Of a stretch of 64,000 nucleotides of DNA, positions 10,079 to 48,754 are shown piece after piece (positions within the stretch are counted from its first letter, which is position 1; every line of letters starts with the position of its first letter). This stretch comes from an uncultured Alistipes sp. (GTDB taxonomy: Bacteria > Bacteroidota > Bacteroidia > Bacteroidales > Rikenellaceae). Location of the stretch: positions 19,146 through 83,145 of the forward strand of contig CALYVN010000002.1 in assembly GCA_945494785.1 (NCBI GenBank), written 5' to 3'. The notes under the pieces were generated by a model. The model did no database searches. It worked only from the letters and a program-made list of their open reading frames with translations, and was not told the DNA's origin. Position numbers and translations under genes: made by a program.

Positions 10079-12625
10079 CTATCCGCATTTGGAGTATCCG
10101 CAGGACATACAGGTCAGACAACCGTTTTGGTATGCCATGTTCTCCTGACCGCAGTGAGGACATTTGCCCTTCGACTTCGTACCGTCCTTGATATACTGTT
10201 TGAGCGCACGTTGTACGCCGTTTTTCCACGTGTTGATATTCTCGCTGTCCAGATGCAGACCATCGATAAGCGATACCACCTTCTCGAGAGGCATGTCGTA
10301 ACGCAGTACGCCCGAGATAAGTTTGGCATAGTTCCAGAAACTTTCATCGAACAGACGCGATATGCCGCCGATTGTGTTGGTATAGCCGTAGCGGTCGTTG
10401 TATTGGAAATCGTAACGTTTTGAGCCGTCCTCCTCGCGAACCTTGATGATATTGCCGTGAACGATTTTCGGCGGAATGTACATGGCATCCTCCTCAATCT
10501 TTCCCGTGAAAATCTCGTAAGGGCGACCATCGCGCAAACCAACGAATGCAATCCAATTTTCGGAGCCGTTCTTGAAACGGACGATGTCTGCGGGAATCGA
10601 TTTAGGTCGTTTGCCGTGGTCGGCAGAGCAATCCGATTTGGCTTTGGATTTGTTGTTCTTATCGACGAGAACGCCCGTGCGGCAACCATCGCGATAGACC
10701 GTAACGCCCTTGCAACCGCACTCCCAAGCAGTGCGATATACTTCGGCAACCAACTCTTCTGTTACGTCGTTCGGCAGATTGACGGTAACGGAGATGGAGT
10801 GATCCACCCATTTCTGTATCGCACCCTGCATCTTGACTTTTGCTACCCAATCGATGTCGTTGGCAGTGGCGTTGTGATAAGGCGAAGCCTCCACCCATTT
10901 TGCAAGTTCGGCATCGGAGATGGTTTGCAGCCGCGATGTGTCATAGCCGTTGATGCGCAACCACTCGACGAACTTGTGGTGATATACGTTGAACTCCTCC
11001 CAAGACTGTCCTTCGTCATCCACAAACGACACCTTTACATCTTTGTCCGAAGGGTTTATCTTGCGACGACGACGATAAACAGGACGGAAAACAGGCTCGA
11101 TGCCCGACGTGGTTTGCGACATGAGCGAGGTTGTACCCGTAGGCGCAATCGTCAGCATGGCTATATTGCGGCGACCGTATTTAAGCATCTGTTCGTAGAG
11201 TGCAGGGTCGGCCTCCTTGATACGTTGAATCATCGGGTTGTTCTTCTCCTTGGCGGCATCGAATACCTTGAACGCTCCGCGCTCGCGAGCCATATCGACC
11301 GATTCGCGATATGCCTCCACTGCCAAAGTCTTATGTACTTTTACCGCAAACTCCAACGCCTCGTCCGAGCCGTAACGCAGCCCGAGAGCCGCGAGCATAT
11401 CGCCTTCTGCCGTAATGCCGAGACCGGTACGACGACCTTTGAGAGCCATATCCTTGATTTTGCGCCACAGATTCAGTTCGACCTGGCGTACATCTGCATC
11501 TTCGGGGTCGGACTCTATCTTTTCGATTATCAAATCGACCTTTTCGAGTTCGAGGTCGATGATGTCGTCCATAAGGTGCATGGCCTTGTGAACATGGTCG
11601 GCGAACTTGTCGAAATTGAAGTGTGCCTGCTTGGTAAACGGATTCTCGACGTAACTGAACAGATTGACCGCCAACAATCGGCAACTGTCATACGGGCACA
11701 ACGGAATCTCGCCGCACGGATTGGTGGATACCGTTACGAAGCCTTCGTCGGCATAGCAGTCGGGAATGCTCTCGCGAATAATCGTATCCCAGAACAAAAC
11801 CCCCGGCTCCGCCGATTTCCAAGCGTTGTGAATGATTTTGTCCCACAACTTTTTGGCATCTATCTCCTGTACATATTTCGGATTGTCCGAGTTTATCGGG
11901 AACTGCTGTCTGTATGGCTTGCCTGCTTGTGCGGCACGCATAAATTCGTCATCTACCTTTATGGAGACGTTGGCACCCGTAATCTTGTTGGTGTCCAATT
12001 TGGCATCGATGAATTTCTCGGCATCCGGATGCTTGATTGAGAGCGAGAGCATCAACGCACCGCGTCGTCCGTCCTGAGCAACCTCGCGCGTCGAGTTGGA
12101 ATAACGCTCCATGAACGGCACGATGCCGGTCGAAGTCAGGGCGGAGTTGAGAACGGGGCTGCCGCTCGGACGAATATGCGACAAATCGTGTCCGACACCA
12201 CCGCGCCGTTTCATCAATTGTACCTGTTCTTCGTCGATGCGGAAAATGCCGCCGTAAGAGTCGGCAGGTCGCTTGTGGCCTATGACAAAACAGTTGGAAA
12301 GCGAGGCTACCTGAAAATTGTTGCCTATGCCGGTCATCGGTCCGCCTTGCGGAATGACATAGCGGAAATGGTCGAGCAAATCGAAAATCGTCTTCTCTGC
12401 AAGCGGATTTTCGTATTTGTTCTCGATGCGTGCCAACTCTTTGGCCAAACGCATGTGCATCTTTTCCGGAGACGACTCGTATATGTTGCCGAACGAGTCT
12501 TTCAAGGCGTATTTGCTTACCCAAACGGTGGCGGCAAGTTCGTCGCCGTCGAAATATTTGATTGATTCGGCGACGGCATCCGCATAGTTAACCTTGCTAA
12601 TCAGCTGACTCTCTTTTTGTTTCAT
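10079..12625 (-). CDS. nrdJ: Adenosylcobalamin-dependent (class II) ribonucleoside-diphosphate reductase
   Basis: 848 aa; RNR motifs (FLDTIIRESIPDCY, NPCGEIPLCPYDSCRLLAVNL, TIAPTGTTSLMSQTTSGIEPVF) and C-terminal Zn-ribbon CPHCGQ...CLTCMSCGYSKCG. Confidence 0.93.
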   Translation of the reverse strand: MKQKESQLISKVNYADAVAESIKYFDGDELAATVWVSKYALKDSFGNIYESSPEKMHMRLAKELARIENKYENPLAEKTIFDLLDHFRYVIPQGGPMTGIGNNFQVASLSNCFVIGHKRPADSYGGIFRIDEEQVQLMKRRGGVGHDLSHIRPSGSPVLNSALTSTGIVPFMERYSNSTREVAQDGRRGALMLSLSIKHPDAEKFIDAKLDTNKITGANVSIKVDDEFMRAAQAGKPYRQQFPINSDNPKYVQEIDAKKLWDKIIHNAWKSAEPGVLFWDTIIRESIPDCYADEGFVTVSTNPCGEIPLCPYDSCRLLAVNLFSYVENPFTKQAHFNFDKFADHVHKAMHLMDDIIDLELEKVDLIIEKIESDPEDADVRQVELNLWRKIKDMALKGRRTGLGITAEGDMLAALGLRYGSDEALEFAVKVHKTLAVEAYRESVDMARERGAFKVFDAAKEKNNPMIQRIKEADPALYEQMLKYGRRNIAMLTIAPTGTTSLMSQTTSGIEPVFRPVYRRRRKINPSDKDVKVSFVDDEGQSWEEFNVYHHKFVEWLRINGYDTSRLQTISDAELAKWVEASPYHNATANDIDWVAKVKMQGAIQKWVDHSISVTVNLPNDVTEELVAEVYRTAWECGCKGVTVYRDGCRTGVLVDKNNKSKAKSDCSADHGKRPKSIPADIVRFKNGSENWIAFVGLRDGRPYEIFTGKIEEDAMYIPPKIVHGNIIKVREEDGSKRYDFQYNDRYGYTNTIGGISRLFDESFWNYAKLISGVLRYDMPLEKVVSLIDGLHLDSENINTWKNGVQRALKQYIKDGTKSKGKCPHCGQENMAYQNGCLTCMSCGYSKCG

Positions 12626-23366: not shown

Positions 23367-23374
23367 TATATTTG
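23367..23374 (+). promoter_or_regulatory. -7 element TATATTTG upstream of small ORF
   Basis: TAnnTTTG 34 nt upstream of the ATG at 23409. Confidence 0.6.
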
Positions 23375-23408
23375 CGGTAGATAGGCATGTATTTTAATCC
23401 TTAGTAAT

Positions 23409-23612
23409 ATGAAACGCAAAACTCTCATTTTCAAGGAGGCGGAGGTAAATTTGCCCTATCTCTCGCCTAATCTCAAATGCTGCAGTGTGTGCACAGAGGC
23501 AGGATTTTTGAACTCTGTAAACGGCTTCGAGGCCGACGACGAAGGCAATGTCCTCGGCGATGTCGATTCGCCATCCAACGGCTACGGCACCATCGACAAC
23601 GGTAGTTACTAA
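23409..23612 (+). CDS. Small 67-aa protein preceding surface lipoprotein gene
   Basis: MKRKTLIFKEAEVNLPYLSPNLKCCSVCTEAGFLNSVNG...; own promoter element; gapless similarity to the 36-aa ORF at 44221. Confidence 0.75.
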   Translation: MKRKTLIFKEAEVNLPYLSPNLKCCSVCTEAGFLNSVNGFEADDEGNVLGDVDSPSNGYGTIDNGSY

Positions 23613-23634
23613 CCCTCTAAAATCTGTGTGCATC

Positions 23635-25704
23635 ATGAAAAATCTTTCTGTTATATTCGGCTTGGCTGCAATGCTTATGACGGGCTGTGCTGCCGACAAC
23701 AACGATATCCGCAAGGATATTACCTCCAAAACCTATACTCTGCGCCTGACCTCTGCCGCACCTGTTGCCGACGGACGTACCTATCACGACGGTACGACGG
23801 TACTTTGGAACAGTACGGGTGAGCAGATGGCGGTCGCCATCTCCAAAAACGGCGAGATGCTCAACGTGGGCAGCGAAAAGGAGTGTATAATTCCTTTCCC
23901 TGCATGCTCTACATCGGAAGTGGCTGCCGACGGCAGTTCGGCGACCTTCGCTTTGACATGGAATACCGACCTCTACGGCGCATTCCCTACCGCATCGGCC
24001 TCTTACCGTCTGCACGGCTTCTATCCTGTGGCTGCCATCGGCAACTACGACAGCGAACGCTATCCGTTTTTGAGCGGCAACATCCGTCCCGACGAGGTGC
24101 TGATTATAATGCCCGACATGCAGCAGCCGAGTGCCGATACCTTCGACCCTTCGGCTGACGTAATGATGGCGATTTCGCAAAAAGCATATACCATACTGAC
24201 CGACGGTATGGAGATACCGATGGTATACGACCGTATCGTAACCCACGGCAAACTGACGCTTACCAATCTGCCGTTCGATGCCTCGACCATAAAATCGGTC
24301 AAAATTACCGCACCCGAAGACAAACAGATGACGGGCGTTTGGTATATTGCAATTCTCGACAAATCGGAATCGGTCGAAAAGGGCAATTTCAACTATGTAC
24401 AGTTGATTTATCCGCAGGATGGAGGCAAAGGCGACGAAAAGAAATCGGTAACTCGTGCGGGTAATTCGATGGATTGCTGGTTCTGCACCATGCCGTTCGA
24501 AATCGCGGAGGGCGAGCAACTGAAACTCCAAATCGAAACGACGGAGGGTATGGCGACACATGCCATCACGGCTCGCAGCGGCGGCATACGCTTTGAAAAG
24601 AACAAATTGGGTACTCTTTCGGTCGATATACCTGCATCGGCGTTCTCGGCATGGAGCATCGAGGCTCCCGCATCGGTGGATGTACGCGGTACGGAGGGTG
24701 CGACAACCGAGATTTTGGTGCGTGCCAACTGCGACGTCTATCCTAATATAGAATACTCGGGTGCCGATACCGGTTGGGCGAGTGTGGATATCGATTACTC
24801 TTATACGACGACCGATTCGGAGGGTTTTACGACATATCGCTATGTTGTAACCGCCAACGAAAACCACTCTACCGATGTGCGCAGTTGTACGGTCGTGATA
24901 ACCGATTACAACTCGGGATTGGTAAAGAATGTTGCGGTTAATCAGGCTGCGGGCGAGGGCGACGTTACAATCGTTCTCGAAGACGATACCCGATGGGTAG
25001 GTACGAGTGTAGTTCTGGCAGGTGTGCGCTGGTATCCCGTAAACTGCGGTTTCTCCAAGGCTCAACCTTTCGGTCGGTTGTATCAGTGGGGTCGTCGCTA
25101 TGGCTTGAAATACGCGGAATCGACGCCTGATTATACGATACACGAATATACCACGACTCCATTTGCGACACTGCATCCGGAGAACAACGTTTACTATTGG
25201 ACGAAGAGGGGTGATGCCGATAAGGATTGGTACACTTCGGAGTTTGAAATTACGCAAGCGGACGAGGCTGCCGGCGTGCCGACGAAGAAACTGCCTGAGG
25301 GTTGGGTGGATATTGCCGACAATGCCGAAATAGGCAATCCTTGTCCGGAAGGTTGGCGTGTGCCTACTTTGGCTGAATTGACGGCTTTGAGCGATTTGCG
25401 TGTCGGTTCGGCTGTACAGAACGGTTTGAAGCACTGCAAATTCAGCGATGGCGAAAATACGTTGCTGCTGCCGTTGGCAGGTTTCGTGGACCCATGGAAT
25501 TCAACCGGTTATAATACATCGCCTTACGGATGGAACTCGAAGGCATATTACTACTCTTCGACAAGAACATGGATGATTGCGATGTCCACGCAGTTGCGCG
25601 ATCTCCTAATCCATGCGATGTATGTAACGGCGGATTATTCGGTCATGGAGACGTCCCGACCTATGGCAGCCTATTCGGTGCGTTGTGTCAAGTCGCTCGA
25701 ATAG
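23635..25704 (+). CDS. Fimbrillin-like lipoprotein with BACON-like and C-terminal FISUMP-like domains
   Basis: Lipobox MKNLSVIFGLAAMLMTGCAADNN; BACON-like SIEAPASVDVRGTEGATTEILVRANCDV; FISUMP-like NPCPEGWRVPTLAELTAL...YYYSSTRTW...AYSVRCVK. Confidence 0.8.
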   Translation: MKNLSVIFGLAAMLMTGCAADNNDIRKDITSKTYTLRLTSAAPVADGRTYHDGTTVLWNSTGEQMAVAISKNGEMLNVGSEKECIIPFPACSTSEVAADGSSATFALTWNTDLYGAFPTASASYRLHGFYPVAAIGNYDSERYPFLSGNIRPDEVLIIMPDMQQPSADTFDPSADVMMAISQKAYTILTDGMEIPMVYDRIVTHGKLTLTNLPFDASTIKSVKITAPEDKQMTGVWYIAILDKSESVEKGNFNYVQLIYPQDGGKGDEKKSVTRAGNSMDCWFCTMPFEIAEGEQLKLQIETTEGMATHAITARSGGIRFEKNKLGTLSVDIPASAFSAWSIEAPASVDVRGTEGATTEILVRANCDVYPNIEYSGADTGWASVDIDYSYTTTDSEGFTTYRYVVTANENHSTDVRSCTVVITDYNSGLVKNVAVNQAAGEGDVTIVLEDDTRWVGTSVVLAGVRWYPVNCGFSKAQPFGRLYQWGRRYGLKYAESTPDYTIHEYTTTPFATLHPENNVYYWTKRGDADKDWYTSEFEITQADEAAGVPTKKLPEGWVDIADNAEIGNPCPEGWRVPTLAELTALSDLRVGSAVQNGLKHCKFSDGENTLLLPLAGFVDPWNSTGYNTSPYGWNSKAYYYSSTRTWMIAMSTQLRDLLIHAMYVTADYSVMETSRPMAAYSVRCVKSLE

Positions 25705-25745
25705 CCGACAAAGCGATAGTCGCAACAACGACGTTTTTACAAAAA

Positions 25746-25772
25746 ACTCCGCGCATCGCGCGGAGTTTTTTT
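25746..25772 (+). terminator. Terminator of lipoprotein operon
   Basis: actccgcgc-atc-gcgcggagt followed by TTTTTT. Confidence 0.9.
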
Positions 25773-44188: not shown

Positions 44189-44196
44189 TATCTTTG
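44189..44196 (+). promoter_or_regulatory. -7 element TATCTTTG upstream of 36-aa ORF
   Basis: TAnnTTTG 24 nt upstream of the ATG at 44221. Confidence 0.6.
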
Positions 44197-44220: not shown

Positions 44221-44331
44221 ATGAAATTGTACTATATGCCTGTCGTTAAGGTGCTTGACATAAGCATTGAAAAGGGATTCGTCGCATCCGAGCCCGACAT
44301 GAATTACGGTGACGGAGGAGATGCGTGGTAG
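44221..44331 (+). CDS. Small 36-aa peptide preceding large surface lipoprotein gene
   Basis: MKLYYMPVVKVLDISIEKGFVASEPDMNYGDGGDAW*; own promoter element; gapless similarity to part of the 67-aa ORF at 23409. Confidence 0.65.
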   Translation: MKLYYMPVVKVLDISIEKGFVASEPDMNYGDGGDAW

Positions 44332-44353: not shown

Positions 44354-47300
44354 ATGAAAGCAATAAGATTTATTTCGATTGTATTCGCTCTCGTTTTGGC
44401 GGCTTGTTCGCGCACTGATGAGAGTATGGATATTACCGGAGGTTATGCGATAACCTCGTTGGACGGTTTTATCGAGGAGCGGGCAGACAGCCGAACTTTG
44501 GCAGAGGTGCGCGAAGACGGATCGGTGCAGATGTATTGGCGTGCCGGCGATGAAATTGCGGTTACCGATTTGTCCGCACTCTCAACCTTCAAACTCAAAT
44601 CGGGTGCCAAGAGTACGCATGGCGTATTTGCCGGTTCGATTGTTTCGACATCCAAAACGATGTATGCCGTATATCCCGCATCTGTGGCAACGATTACGGA
44701 GGGTACTGCTTCGGTTACCTTGCCGAACATACAGTCGTACACCTCGTCGGCAGATGCCGATACGGGTGGTCGCAACATCATGGTCGGCGAGACGGCAGAT
44801 GCTTCGGCATTCGATTTCTATACGGTCGGTGCGATTGCACGATTTGCGATTACGGTCGATGTCGACGAGACCATCAACTCCCTGACAATGCGTGTCGAGG
44901 ATGGTTATTTGTCGGGTCTCGGCACAATCGATTTGCAGAGCCGTACACTCAGTGCACTCAACAAGCGTAACGTTACGCTGAACTATACCGAGCCGGCTAT
45001 CGGTTCTTCGACCGACGGTTGGGCTTTGATTGCGCCAATCGATTTCACCTCGACAACGGGCAAGGTCTATTACGACATCACCACGAGCAAGGGCAAATAT
45101 ACCTTCTGCCGCAAACCGACCAAGGCGTTCAGGGCAGGTATGGTCTATAATTTCCCACTGAATAAAAACAATTTCGAGCAGGTTGCCTCTTCGTCGGAAC
45201 TTGCCGACGGCAAATATACGTTCGAGAGCAATGCCTCGACGCTGACGGTCAAATTGCTGCGTGCCACCGATACGACGATAGCGGTAGGGTGGTCGCAGAA
45301 CGGTTTCCCTGCCGATTACTCGGCGGATATTGCCGACGAATACGAGTTGTATCTCTACAACGAGCGTAACCAATCGTTGGTAATATGGCGCCCCAACACG
45401 GCTCAATGCGTAACGGGCAATGCCGTATTCGCATATACCGAAACGAGTGCTACCAATCCGCCGCGATTCATATTTACGGGTCTGACTCCGAATACGACCT
45501 ACAAAGTCAAGGTTAAGAATCTAACGACCGCCAAATCGTCGGCGATGTTGATTGTCTCGACGGCTGCGGTGGATTGCGACGAGGTAGTATCGACCGCTCA
45601 AAACGAGGGCGATATCATCGCATTCCAGAACTTCGGCAAATTGGTATGGAACGGCGATATGACTACTCTGTCTGCTGGATATATTTACCCGGGTTATGCG
45701 TCGCTGACCGATATAGACGACGGTACTGCATGGGGCGATTACCGCTCGGAGGAGCAGACCACCTACAAATACACCCGTCAGGACCGCGAACAGCAATTGT
45801 TCACCACCTATAAGGCGGTTGTGCAGAGTTGCGGACTCGGCGATTGGGCTTATTGGCGCAATTCGGCAGATGATGCACAGACGGCTACTCCTTGTGCGAT
45901 TCTCTCCCGTCCTGGTTATGTCAAGGTCGGTGTCAGCAAGGTGCGTGCCGGTATGGCAACACCGGTATTGTCGGCTTTGAGGGGTAAGGCTACCGTGCGC
46001 GTGTCGTTCAAGGCTTGCGCATACGGCACCACCACTCCCGACCAGACCGCTCTTGGCGTGCGTGCCATCGACGGAGGTACATTGTCGAGTTACAGATTGA
46101 CGGGCGGTACGGAAGGCACGGCCAAGTCGCTTACCATCAGCGATAAATTCGAGTGGAACAAATACAGCGTGGAGGTGTCTGGCGTGTCGCCTACCTCGCG
46201 TATAGTGGTTTTCGCCAATGCTGCGGATGTGTCGTCGAAGAACAACCGTTTCCATCTGGACGATATCAAGGTCGAGTTTGTCCGTTACGAAGAGGCTGTC
46301 GAGGAGGCTCCCGTAGTGAAGCAGGTGGCAGCCGACGTCCGCAATGTTACGGTGGAGTGGAACGAGACCAATACGGACGGTACGCGCAAATATACCGTTG
46401 CCATATATAAGGATGCTGCATGCACGAACAAGTATCAGGAGTACGCAACGACCATTTCGTCGAGTACGAATTATATGGCTTGGCCTGCCCGATTCACTTT
46501 CCCTCATCTGACACCGAAAACGACCTATTATGTTACTGTTACCGATTCTGCCGGCAAGGTTTCGAGCCCTGCTGCCGTAACGACTTCGGCCGAGCGTACA
46601 AGCGTCAGCAACGAGGTGCTGTATGCGGGCTTCGACGAATTGTGCTTCGGCGGCGACTATATCAATATGGCCAATGCTCCCGTATTGTCCGGTACTGCGT
46701 CGTCATTCAAGCCTTCCGAATTGACCGAGGCGATTGCGCAATCGGTATCGTCGAGTGCGCCTACGACCGACGGCGGTCAGTTTACTTCGCATTCGTCCGA
46801 AACGCTCCAACTGTTGGGCTTGGATGCGTGGACGGGTGTGGCAGCGTTGGTGCGTCAAGGCTTTGTCAAAGTCGGTACCGCATCGGCAAAAGGCTCTATA
46901 ACCACTCCCGACCTTGGCTGTATCACGAGTGGAGCAGCACTGAAAGTGTCGTTCAAAGCGTGTCCGTTCGTCGATGGCAAGACCGACCAGACTTCGCACA
47001 TAAATGTCAAACTTATTGCCGAAGACGGTACGGTTAAGGCGACACAAAGCGTCGAGATAGGCGGTCGTCGTTCGCAACCGGGTTGGGACTCCTTTACCGT
47101 CGATTTCACGGGCGCGGAGCCTGTCGATAAACTGCAATTCGAAGCGGGCGACGTGCTGCAATCGCGATTCTGCATAGACGACATACTCGTTACATCGCCG
47201 TCCGCAATTACGGGCAAAATCGTCTTCGGTTATGTCAAGGACAGCGATGGCAACCCTATGGCGGATGTCGTGGTCAGCGACGGTTTCTCGGCTGCGAAGA

Positions 47301-48754
47301 CCAATGCAAGCGGTTATTACCGCCTGACACCGACAAGCGATACGTGGTATATCTATTACTCCATTCCGGAGGATTGCGAGGTGCCTATCAACTCGTATGG
47401 TCAGCCGGCATTCTTTACGAAATACTCTTCTTCAAAGAACCGTTACGACTTTACGCTGAAGCGCATGAGCGGTGGTGTGGAGACGGCGTTCAACCTCTTC
47501 TGCCTTGCCGACCCGCAGTGTCGTTCGACCGACATCTCCCGCTTTACCAACGAGACTGTGGCGGATATTAAGTCGCATGCGGCAACCAAGTCGCTGCCTT
47601 GCTACGGCGTAACGCTCGGCGATATAGGTTATTCCGAGACCTCGCGCAATACGGTGCCTTACATGTCGCAGATGCGTTCTGCCATGGCAAAGAGCAAAAT
47701 AGGCATGCCTATATTCCAGACAATCGGTAATCACGACTATACCTATTTCTACGGTTCGAGCAATCCTATCTCTGCCGACGCTACCAGCAGTACGGCCAAC
47801 CTCAAATGCCAGCGTGCATTCGAAAATGTGTTCGGACCTATCAACTATTCGTGGAATCGAGGCGATGTGCATATAGTGAGTATGCGTAACATCATATACA
47901 ACAGTACGACGGATGCCTCCAATTATTCGATGGGCTTCACCGACGAGCAATACAAATGGTTGCAGCAGGATTTGGCATATACGCCGAAGACCAAGATGAT
48001 TATCTTGTGCGTGCATATTCCGATTATGAACTCGTCGAAACTGAACGTGCAGAATGTATTGAAACTTATCAAGCAGTTCAAGACGGCGCACATTATGTCG
48101 GGACACACCCACTATATGCGCAACGAGCCGACCAAATCGGGCGCATACGAGCATGTACACGCGGCGGTATGCGGTGCATGGTGGTGGTCGTCGGTCAATG
48201 GCGACGGTAGCCCTAACGGCTATGCGGTGTACGAAATCAACGGTACGACCATGACCGATTGGTACTACAAGGGTGTAAATAATGGAATGAATAAGCGCTC
48301 GTATCAAATCCGACTCTATCGTGGCAATATCAAGACGGGCGGCTCTTACGAGTATTTCAAATATCAACTCGGCAGCAACGTATTGTTGGCAAACGTCTTT
48401 AATGCCGACTCTTCGTGGACTGTCAAGGTTTACGAAAATGGCGTATATTCGGGTGATATGACTCCTATTTCCTACGTACGGTATGATGCCACCACATTGC
48501 CGAAGAGTTCTACCAGCCCGACCTATGTGCCTACCGATTCGAGTCAGGATTTCTGGGCGATAGGTTATCACATCGGCGTTGTGGGGCGCGGACATACCGA
48601 CAGTTATATGACCAGTTGCTTCCACATGTACAAATATACGCTCAAAAATTCGTCGGCAACCATCAAGGTGGTTGCTACCGACCGTTTCGGCAACGAGTAC
48701 ACGCAAACGTCGATAACGGGAGATTGCGAATATACGTATGCGAAAAAACCTTAA
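44354..48754 (+). CDS. Large lipoprotein: fimbrillin-like N-terminus, tandem FnIII/jelly-roll-like units, carboxypeptidase-regulatory-like domain, calcineurin-like metallophosphatase
   Basis: Lipobox ALVLAACSRTDES; metallophosphatase motifs LADPQ, LGDIGYS, GNHDY, HIPIM, SGHTHYM; internal repeats. Confidence 0.85.
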   Translation: MKAIRFISIVFALVLAACSRTDESMDITGGYAITSLDGFIEERADSRTLAEVREDGSVQMYWRAGDEIAVTDLSALSTFKLKSGAKSTHGVFAGSIVSTSKTMYAVYPASVATITEGTASVTLPNIQSYTSSADADTGGRNIMVGETADASAFDFYTVGAIARFAITVDVDETINSLTMRVEDGYLSGLGTIDLQSRTLSALNKRNVTLNYTEPAIGSSTDGWALIAPIDFTSTTGKVYYDITTSKGKYTFCRKPTKAFRAGMVYNFPLNKNNFEQVASSSELADGKYTFESNASTLTVKLLRATDTTIAVGWSQNGFPADYSADIADEYELYLYNERNQSLVIWRPNTAQCVTGNAVFAYTETSATNPPRFIFTGLTPNTTYKVKVKNLTTAKSSAMLIVSTAAVDCDEVVSTAQNEGDIIAFQNFGKLVWNGDMTTLSAGYIYPGYASLTDIDDGTAWGDYRSEEQTTYKYTRQDREQQLFTTYKAVVQSCGLGDWAYWRNSADDAQTATPCAILSRPGYVKVGVSKVRAGMATPVLSALRGKATVRVSFKACAYGTTTPDQTALGVRAIDGGTLSSYRLTGGTEGTAKSLTISDKFEWNKYSVEVSGVSPTSRIVVFANAADVSSKNNRFHLDDIKVEFVRYEEAVEEAPVVKQVAADVRNVTVEWNETNTDGTRKYTVAIYKDAACTNKYQEYATTISSSTNYMAWPARFTFPHLTPKTTYYVTVTDSAGKVSSPAAVTTSAERTSVSNEVLYAGFDELCFGGDYINMANAPVLSGTASSFKPSELTEAIAQSVSSSAPTTDGGQFTSHSSETLQLLGLDAWTGVAALVRQGFVKVGTASAKGSITTPDLGCITSGAALKVSFKACPFVDGKTDQTSHINVKLIAEDGTVKATQSVEIGGRRSQPGWDSFTVDFTGAEPVDKLQFEAGDVLQSRFCIDDILVTSPSAITGKIVFGYVKDSDGNPMADVVVSDGFSAAKTNASGYYRLTPTSDTWYIYYSIPEDCEVPINSYGQPAFFTKYSSSKNRYDFTLKRMSGGVETAFNLFCLADPQCRSTDISRFTNETVADIKSHAATKSLPCYGVTLGDIGYSETSRNTVPYMSQMRSAMAKSKIGMPIFQTIGNHDYTYFYGSSNPISADATSSTANLKCQRAFENVFGPINYSWNRGDVHIVSMRNIIYNSTTDASNYSMGFTDEQYKWLQQDLAYTPKTKMIILCVHIPIMNSSKLNVQNVLKLIKQFKTAHIMSGHTHYMRNEPTKSGAYEHVHAAVCGAWWWSSVNGDGSPNGYAVYEINGTTMTDWYYKGVNNGMNKRSYQIRLYRGNIKTGGSYEYFKYQLGSNVLLANVFNADSSWTVKVYENGVYSGDMTPISYVRYDATTLPKSSTSPTYVPTDSSQDFWAIGYHIGVVGRGHTDSYMTSCFHMYKYTLKNSSATIKVVATDRFGNEYTQTSITGDCEYTYAKKP

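Follow-up and report, generated by a model that had tools for sequence, protein, structure and literature searches.

A probable RiPP precursor encoded ahead of a surface lipoprotein in Alistipes, and its relatives across the Bacteroidales

What a short peptide might do when it is encoded directly ahead of a surface lipoprotein is the question raised by a locus from an uncultured Alistipes sp., located within the 64-kb stretch of DNA that was analysed (the window). The original prediction described this locus as a promoter, a 67-aa ORF, a 22-nt gap, a lipoprotein gene and a strong terminator, all of which proved accurate in both sequence and coordinates, and correctly stated that the peptide lacks a signal sequence; it further offered, as speculation, the idea that the ORF encodes a precursor peptide (RiPP). 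The analysis described here supports that idea, and indicates that the 67-aa peptide is very probably a RiPP precursor from a Bacteroidota branch of the linear polyphosphorylated peptide (LPP) type, with its RRE, kinase, peptidase and exporter steps assigned by homology. The features of the locus are as follows.

23367-23374, + strand: -7 promoter element TATATTTG, of the Bacteroidota type (TAnnTTTG), from sequence
23409-23612, + strand: 67-aa peptide ORF, without a signal sequence
23409-23507, + strand: predicted precursor leader, residues 1-33 (MKRK...YLSPNLKCCSVCTEAGF), from profile conservation and a P-to-GF spacing of 11 in 107 of 107 relatives
23508-23612, + strand: predicted precursor core, residues 34-67 (LNSVNGFEADDEGNVLGDVDSPSNGYGTIDNGSY), and stop codon; in relatives, the position of Ser36 is Ser/Thr in 106 of 107, and the cores are all net negative and free of Cys
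23514-23516, + strand: Ser36, predicted phosphorylation site, by analogy with LPP core residue S3 (PMC13381572)
23635-25704, + strand: 689-aa lipoprotein with lipobox, common N-terminal domain, weak BACON and C-terminal FISUMP-like domain
25741-25771, no strand assigned: intrinsic terminator, perfect 14-bp hairpin stem and T-run (fold -20.8 kcal/mol)

The peptide, its lipoprotein and their relatives

The -7 element is separated from the start of the 67-aa ORF by 34 nt, and 42 of 103 relatives have a TAnnTTTG sequence no more than 120 nt upstream, as compared to 6.6% of random stretches from the same loci (a comparison in which intergenic base composition is uncontrolled). Because the gap between the ORF and the lipoprotein gene is only 22 nt, the two are likely to be co-transcribed. 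The lipoprotein, with a lipobox that reads LMTGC, had been labelled as fimbrillin-like, BACON-like and FISUMP-like. The FISUMP assignment stands as the sole Pfam match above cut-off, albeit at a borderline score (PF09603, 34.1 bits vs a cut-off of 33.9), whereas BACON falls below its Pfam cut-off (17 vs 25) and no fimbrillin-like match appeared in the Pfam search; the N-terminal domain nevertheless has homologues in 87 other partner lipoproteins (E 5e-19, using a model built from those 87 with the 689-aa protein left out, for which the best of 500 shuffles gave 0.35).

A BLAST search with the peptide alone returned only four weak relatives, all of the same genus and all short ORFs immediately 5' of a lipoprotein gene, such that a profile was needed to recover the family. 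That profile (A1), built from six rows in which Y, P, E, G, F and S are invariant, matches 153 of 250 genomes of the Rikenellaceae, with up to 18 matches per genome, and finds 12 peptides in the Alistipes genome itself, where a wider profile finds 13. The locus had been described as the second copy of one arrangement; it is actually one of 13 in its genome, and an arrangement with that many copies, in 153 of 250 genomes, is far beyond chance. Nearly all family members lie immediately 5' of a lipoprotein gene. These peptides lie outside the coverage of Pfam and NCBIfam, where no family was matched by the members beyond chance; the one hint was that the paeninodin lasso precursor model weakly matched two of 38 members (E 0.0078). 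A tblastn search of the peptide against phages found nothing.

Two observations concern the edges of the family. At one locus (L210, G162:C73) a second short ORF (MKKIYIKPICVEMHIDTMQMLAMSGNAP...) lies 3' of the peptide, with a YxxP-like start (YIKP) and LAMSG replacing GFxxS, and may form a sister family of peptides served by the same RRE. In other Bacteroidales families, members stand alone with no lipoprotein gene behind them (L071, L073, L074, L085, L087, L093 and L097).

Features of the peptides were tabulated over 107 distinct relatives drawn by profile, a selection that favours the motif more than features of the tail. In all 107, GF lies at a distance of 11 residues from the Pro of YxxP, and position 3 after the F is occupied by Ser in 104 peptides and by Thr in two. 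The proposed division between leader and tail at GFxxS is right, as is the acidic character of the tail: all 107 cores are net negative, and the part after GF (12-34 aa, median 20) carries only 0.26 Lys/Arg per peptide. An aromatic residue is found among the last four positions in 86 of the 107 (mean of 50 and maximum of 68 over 2000 shuffles), and core residue 1 is Ala in 71 and Gly in two, unlike the usual ring-forming Gly of lasso cores. Cleavage of the leader is predicted close to the boundary between GF and AxS, an approximate position since G-F-A also fits the -3/-1 pattern of signal peptidases. The CCxxC cluster to which attention had been drawn (residues 24-28) does fall in the constant front part of the peptide, and Cys is present in 36 of the 107 leaders; it would belong to the leader and not to the product, and none of the 107 tails contains Cys.

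The window contains a second pair of the same kind.

44189-44196, + strand: -7 element TATCTTTG of the second pair, from sequence
44221-44331, + strand: second putative precursor peptide, 36 aa (MKLYYMPVVKVLDISIEKGF / VASEPDMNYGDGGDAW); profile E 1e-13, the peptide being itself one of the six rows of that profile
44354-48754, + strand: partner lipoprotein with C-terminal calcineurin-like phosphoesterase (PF16370, PF16371, PF00149)

This second lipoprotein (~1466 aa) combines Fn3 with its calcineurin-like phosphoesterase, placing a protein of phosphate-cleaving type next to a predicted phosphopeptide. The sequence MNYGDGGDAW precedes a phosphoesterase lipoprotein in two species (at 44221 of the window and at L050), and an orthologue search in peptide-free genomes gave a match to the lipoprotein that was limited to the phosphoesterase domain. 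Just outside the window, the same genome carries two precursor-lipoprotein pairs that diverge from one another ~200 nt apart (G000:C2:12048-12182 on the - strand and 12384-12506 on the + strand; L124).

Candidate enzymes in trans and in complete loci

The YxxP motif is read by the RREs of lasso and LPP pathways (PMC12710340, PMC10368454, PMC13381572), and its occurrence in the leader is a predicted RRE-binding motif. LPPs constitute a RiPP family described by Popov et al. (2026, Nat Commun 17:6633; PMC13381572), in which the RRE LppB binds YxxP, LppK phosphorylates core residue Ser3, the SpI peptidase LppS cuts the leader with help from the RRE, and LppD exports the product. Corresponding genes are found in the Alistipes genome at sites remote from the peptide, with the RRE on contig C24 and the exporter, kinase and peptidase on contig C5. 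The PqqD family has exactly one match in that genome (C24:10586-10804; PF05402, 52 bits), for which lasso PqqD chaperones are the top NCBIfam models, with scores under the cut-off, and which matches the lasso RRE TfuB1 among solved structures (6jx3, E 0.0065). Its conserved N39, D77 and W81 are spaced nearly as are N33, D70 and F74 in the YxxP-binding pocket of LppB (a mapping inferred by spacing and by alignment to TfuB1); residues matching LppB N33 and D70 make Tyr the favoured residue of the motif (PMC13381572). The C5 operon comprises an ABC exporter, a kinase and a signal-peptidase homologue (SpI), all of them intact. The kinase matches a profile of in-cluster kinases at E 1e-93 and retains the motifs GESGTGKSTH and LLNDDSP; the SpI, a divergent member at 64.7 bits to the SpI profile, has its Ser, His and Asp in place; and the 565-aa exporter is encoded immediately 5' of the kinase, with one of its cluster homologues matching MsbA-type models. 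No NTP transferase was seen beside this operon. Ser, His and Asp are invariant across the SpI homologues, which are of the SipW/archaeal type, and the Dysgonomonas homologue matches TIGR02228 at 34 bits (E 2e-8), below the cut-off of 51.85.

In most Alistipes the RRE is absent from the kinase locus. The solitary Alistipes RRE has fixed neighbours, namely a small Cys/His-rich protein, a TonB-dependent receptor and a heavy-metal-associated protein, and diverges from recQ or an acyltransferase gene (G000:C24:7182-10858, L130; also L132-L136 and L143-L161). Long open frames of up to 1087 aa around the RRE were considered as RRE fusions, and were rejected as reading-frame overlaps with the divergent recQ.

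Peptides and enzymes are distributed together. Over the same 250 genomes, 147 contain both peptide and RRE, six the peptide only, nine the RRE only and 88 neither (Fisher 6e-49), the RRE being present in 147 of the 153 peptide-bearing genomes, while the equivalent counts for peptide and kinase are 141, 12, 8 and 89 (Fisher 4e-44); these counts and Fisher values take no account of phylogeny. At the level of genera, all seven that carry the peptide are among the nine of 22 that carry the RRE (hypergeometric p ~2e-4). The SpI was found in 20 of 20 peptide-bearing genomes and in none of seven without the peptide. Its profile gave only four matches across 397 genomes of the phylum, either because the profile is too narrow or because certain Bacteroidales hold most instances of the system.

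In other Bacteroidales, the enzymes can share a locus with the peptide and lipoprotein, which lends further support to the precursor idea. The PqqD gene of other Bacteroidales is accompanied by an HprK-like kinase, a signal-peptidase-like protein, a PF14907 nucleotidyltransferase and an ABC exporter, and in five loci (L121, L275, L332, L314 and L337) peptide, lipoprotein and enzymes all occur together. One of these (L121, G506:C2) encodes within ~12 kb an RRE, a nucleotidyltransferase, a kinase, Wza- and Wzc-like genes, a peptide and its partner lipoprotein, SpI and an exporter (the names Wza, Wzc and Wzz being read from the sequences by eye). The Bacteroides oleiciplenus YIT 12058 locus (L275) adds a Wzz-like gene, an exporter, a kinase and SpI to its peptide and lipoprotein, and next to these sits another peptide-lipoprotein pair. 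Similar sets of genes in differing order occur in Phocaeicola sartorii (L332), in a Prevotellaceae MAG (L314) and at L337; in Dysgonomonas sp. 511 (L339) the enzymes accompany a peptide that has no lipoprotein. PF14907 was matched in the G268 and G144 clusters, with homologues by position and sequence in L121, L332, L314 and L337. Across 80 kinase loci, SpI is present in 78 (the other two lying on contigs of ~2 kb), an RRE in 47, and a profile-recognised peptide, mostly 5' of a lipoprotein gene, in 18. Sets of RRE, nucleotidyltransferase and kinase were also seen inside exopolysaccharide-type loci with a sugar transferase and Wza-/Wzc-like genes (L154, G144:C4; L121), and G144 carries a solitary RRE as well.

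Pairing with lipoproteins and the alternatives

The constancy of the lipoprotein partner was assessed for 119 peptides from all families, each with at least 400 nt downstream, using a strict lipobox pattern. Of these, 100 precede a lipobox protein, at a median gap of 15.5 nt; five partners missed by the pattern are lipoproteins by eye (L005, L042, L043, L207 and L235), and most of the remaining peptides stand alone, in other families. The partners share an N-terminal domain, while their C-termini vary between BspA-type LRR, BACON, Mfa-like, PCMD, nuclease, FISUMP and phosphoesterase domains. Over 90 non-redundant pairs, core similarity tracks lipoprotein similarity (r 0.47, permutation p 0.0005), and does so undiminished once the effect of the leader is removed (r 0.47), the leader itself giving an r of only 0.07 with the lipoprotein. 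Shared descent of neighbouring genes would account for part of this correlation, and the leader, equally linked, may be kept constant by common machinery. Since the core co-varies with the lipoprotein and the equally linked leader hardly does so, we propose that each core functions at the cell surface together with the lipoprotein encoded beside it, in display, in assembly or as a ligand.

Several other explanations can be weighed against the same evidence. Short gaps (median 15.5 nt) and, in Alistipes, a nearly constant position immediately upstream are what would be expected of a regulatory ORF, the translation of which controls the lipoprotein gene in cis while the peptide itself has no function; that reading is very unlikely, given a motif conserved at the protein level with its spacing fixed in 107 of 107 relatives, the lack of peptides from genomes that also lack the RRE and kinase, the stand-alone peptides of other families, and a search of the peptide/lipoprotein region that found no Rfam element. 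The possibility that the RRE and peptide have instead been co-opted to serve pilin-type lipoproteins in the cytoplasm, as chaperone or adaptor, with the peptide no longer cleaved or exported in Alistipes, draws on the RRE being unlinked to the other enzymes in most Alistipes and on the divergence of the genome's own SpI. It is very unlikely, as the operon of kinase, SpI and exporter remains intact in that genome with its catalytic residues, the peptides share their pattern of presence and absence with kinase and SpI, and a hydroxyl residue is kept in 106 of 107 relatives.

The first residue of a lasso core takes part in the ring and is usually Gly, and Asp or Glu stands at positions 7-9. A lasso precursor, with a YxxP leader and an acidic core closed into a ring by a B2/C pair from another part of the genome, would agree with the leader motif, with the two weak matches to the paeninodin precursor model and with the resemblance of the RRE, among NCBIfam models, to lasso chaperones; it is nonetheless very unlikely, because core residue 1 is mostly Ala, and because no cyclase or B2 gene lies beside the enzyme loci that were read, where an SpI-type peptidase takes the place of B2.

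The best reading is that LPP-like precursors multiplied by duplication in Alistipes and spread through the genome, each linked to a surface lipoprotein of its own, while the enzymes act in trans. Under this LPP-type scheme: (i) the precursor would be translated from an mRNA common to its lipoprotein; (ii) the single, discrete PqqD-type RRE would bind the YxxP-x-(V/I/L) strand; (iii) the HprK-like kinase would phosphorylate the near-invariant Ser after GF, a site predicted because the gene set equals that of LPPs, where LppK phosphorylates core Ser3; (iv) the SipW/archaeal-type signal-peptidase homologue would remove the leader close to the boundary between GF and AxS; (v) the MsbA-like ABC exporter would take the acidic core out of the cytoplasm; and (vi) outside the cell, the core may work with its own lipoprotein, as linkage and co-variation suggest. 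The genome most likely encodes at least 13 small phosphorylated, exported peptides that are served by one common enzyme set, nearly each of them encoded immediately 5' of its own surface lipoprotein. A broader proposal, put forward tentatively and with somewhat more doubt than belief, is that this is a RiPP system for building the cell surface, as opposed to making a diffusible product, in which at least 12 acidic phosphopeptides in each Alistipes genome would be matured by one RRE-kinase-peptidase-exporter set, every peptide being produced alongside, matched to and presented with a pilin-type surface lipoprotein of its own.

RiPP precursors can, by this account, be scattered singly and far from their enzymes, where they are invisible to cluster-based mining. 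Isolate genomes suited to testing are those of Bacteroides oleiciplenus YIT 12058, Phocaeicola sartorii JCM 17136, Dysgonomonas sp. 511 and Alistipes sp. An66.

Comparison with LPPs and other systems

The open-licence literature yielded no description of peptides preceding fimbrillin-type lipoproteins, of a PqqD/HprK/SpI system in Bacteroidota, or of a scattered precursor set of this kind. RiPP precursors with GG leaders and PCAT exporters have been surveyed in Bacteroidales (PMC10352776); the present peptides, in contrast, have no GG leader motif and no C39 peptidase, and the text of that survey does not mention Alistipes, fimbriae or lipoproteins. The HPr-rel-A systems (TIGR04352/TIGR04353) likewise combine a PqqD-type chaperone with an HprK-related kinase, and both models match weakly, but at scores far under their curated cut-offs (17.9 vs 35 and 19-22 vs 200). 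Phosphorylated lasso peptides of the paeninodin and Bsf types share a YxxP/WxxP leader, a discrete RRE, an HprK-like kinase and a nucleotidyltransferase (PMC10368454, PMC13381572), and differ in that here there is no ring-forming core, SpI replaces the B2 peptidase, and no cyclase gene occurs at the loci read.

The closest correspondence is to LPPs, with which the system shares a discrete RRE, an HprK-like kinase, a SipW/archaeal-type SpI, an MsbA-like exporter and, in several Bacteroidales loci, an NTP transferase. Precursors of both kinds have a YxxP leader, variable C-termini and a conserved Ser that closely follows a conserved Glu, and exopolysaccharide-export neighbours are a further shared feature at some loci. 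From the LPP leader consensus (YxxPxVLxHQxIxFETxxS), the YxxP, the later Glu and the Ser are kept, whereas VLxHQ and FET are not; the distance from Glu to Ser is six here as opposed to four in LPPs, and the cleavage site does not align exactly. These leader differences count against the LPP-type reading, as do the outgroup peptides that stand alone without a lipoprotein (L071, L073, L074 and L085), the divergence of the SpI on C5 and the lack of an NTP transferase beside its operon. LPPs have been called restricted to Bacillota (PMC13381572), whereas the present system belongs to Bacteroidota, where the precursors pair with a surface lipoprotein and, in Alistipes, are numerous and scattered, with their enzymes in trans. 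No function has been assigned to LPPs; their gene set, recurring in gut Bacteroidota with a constant protein partner for the peptide, offers a lead to the role of such peptides.
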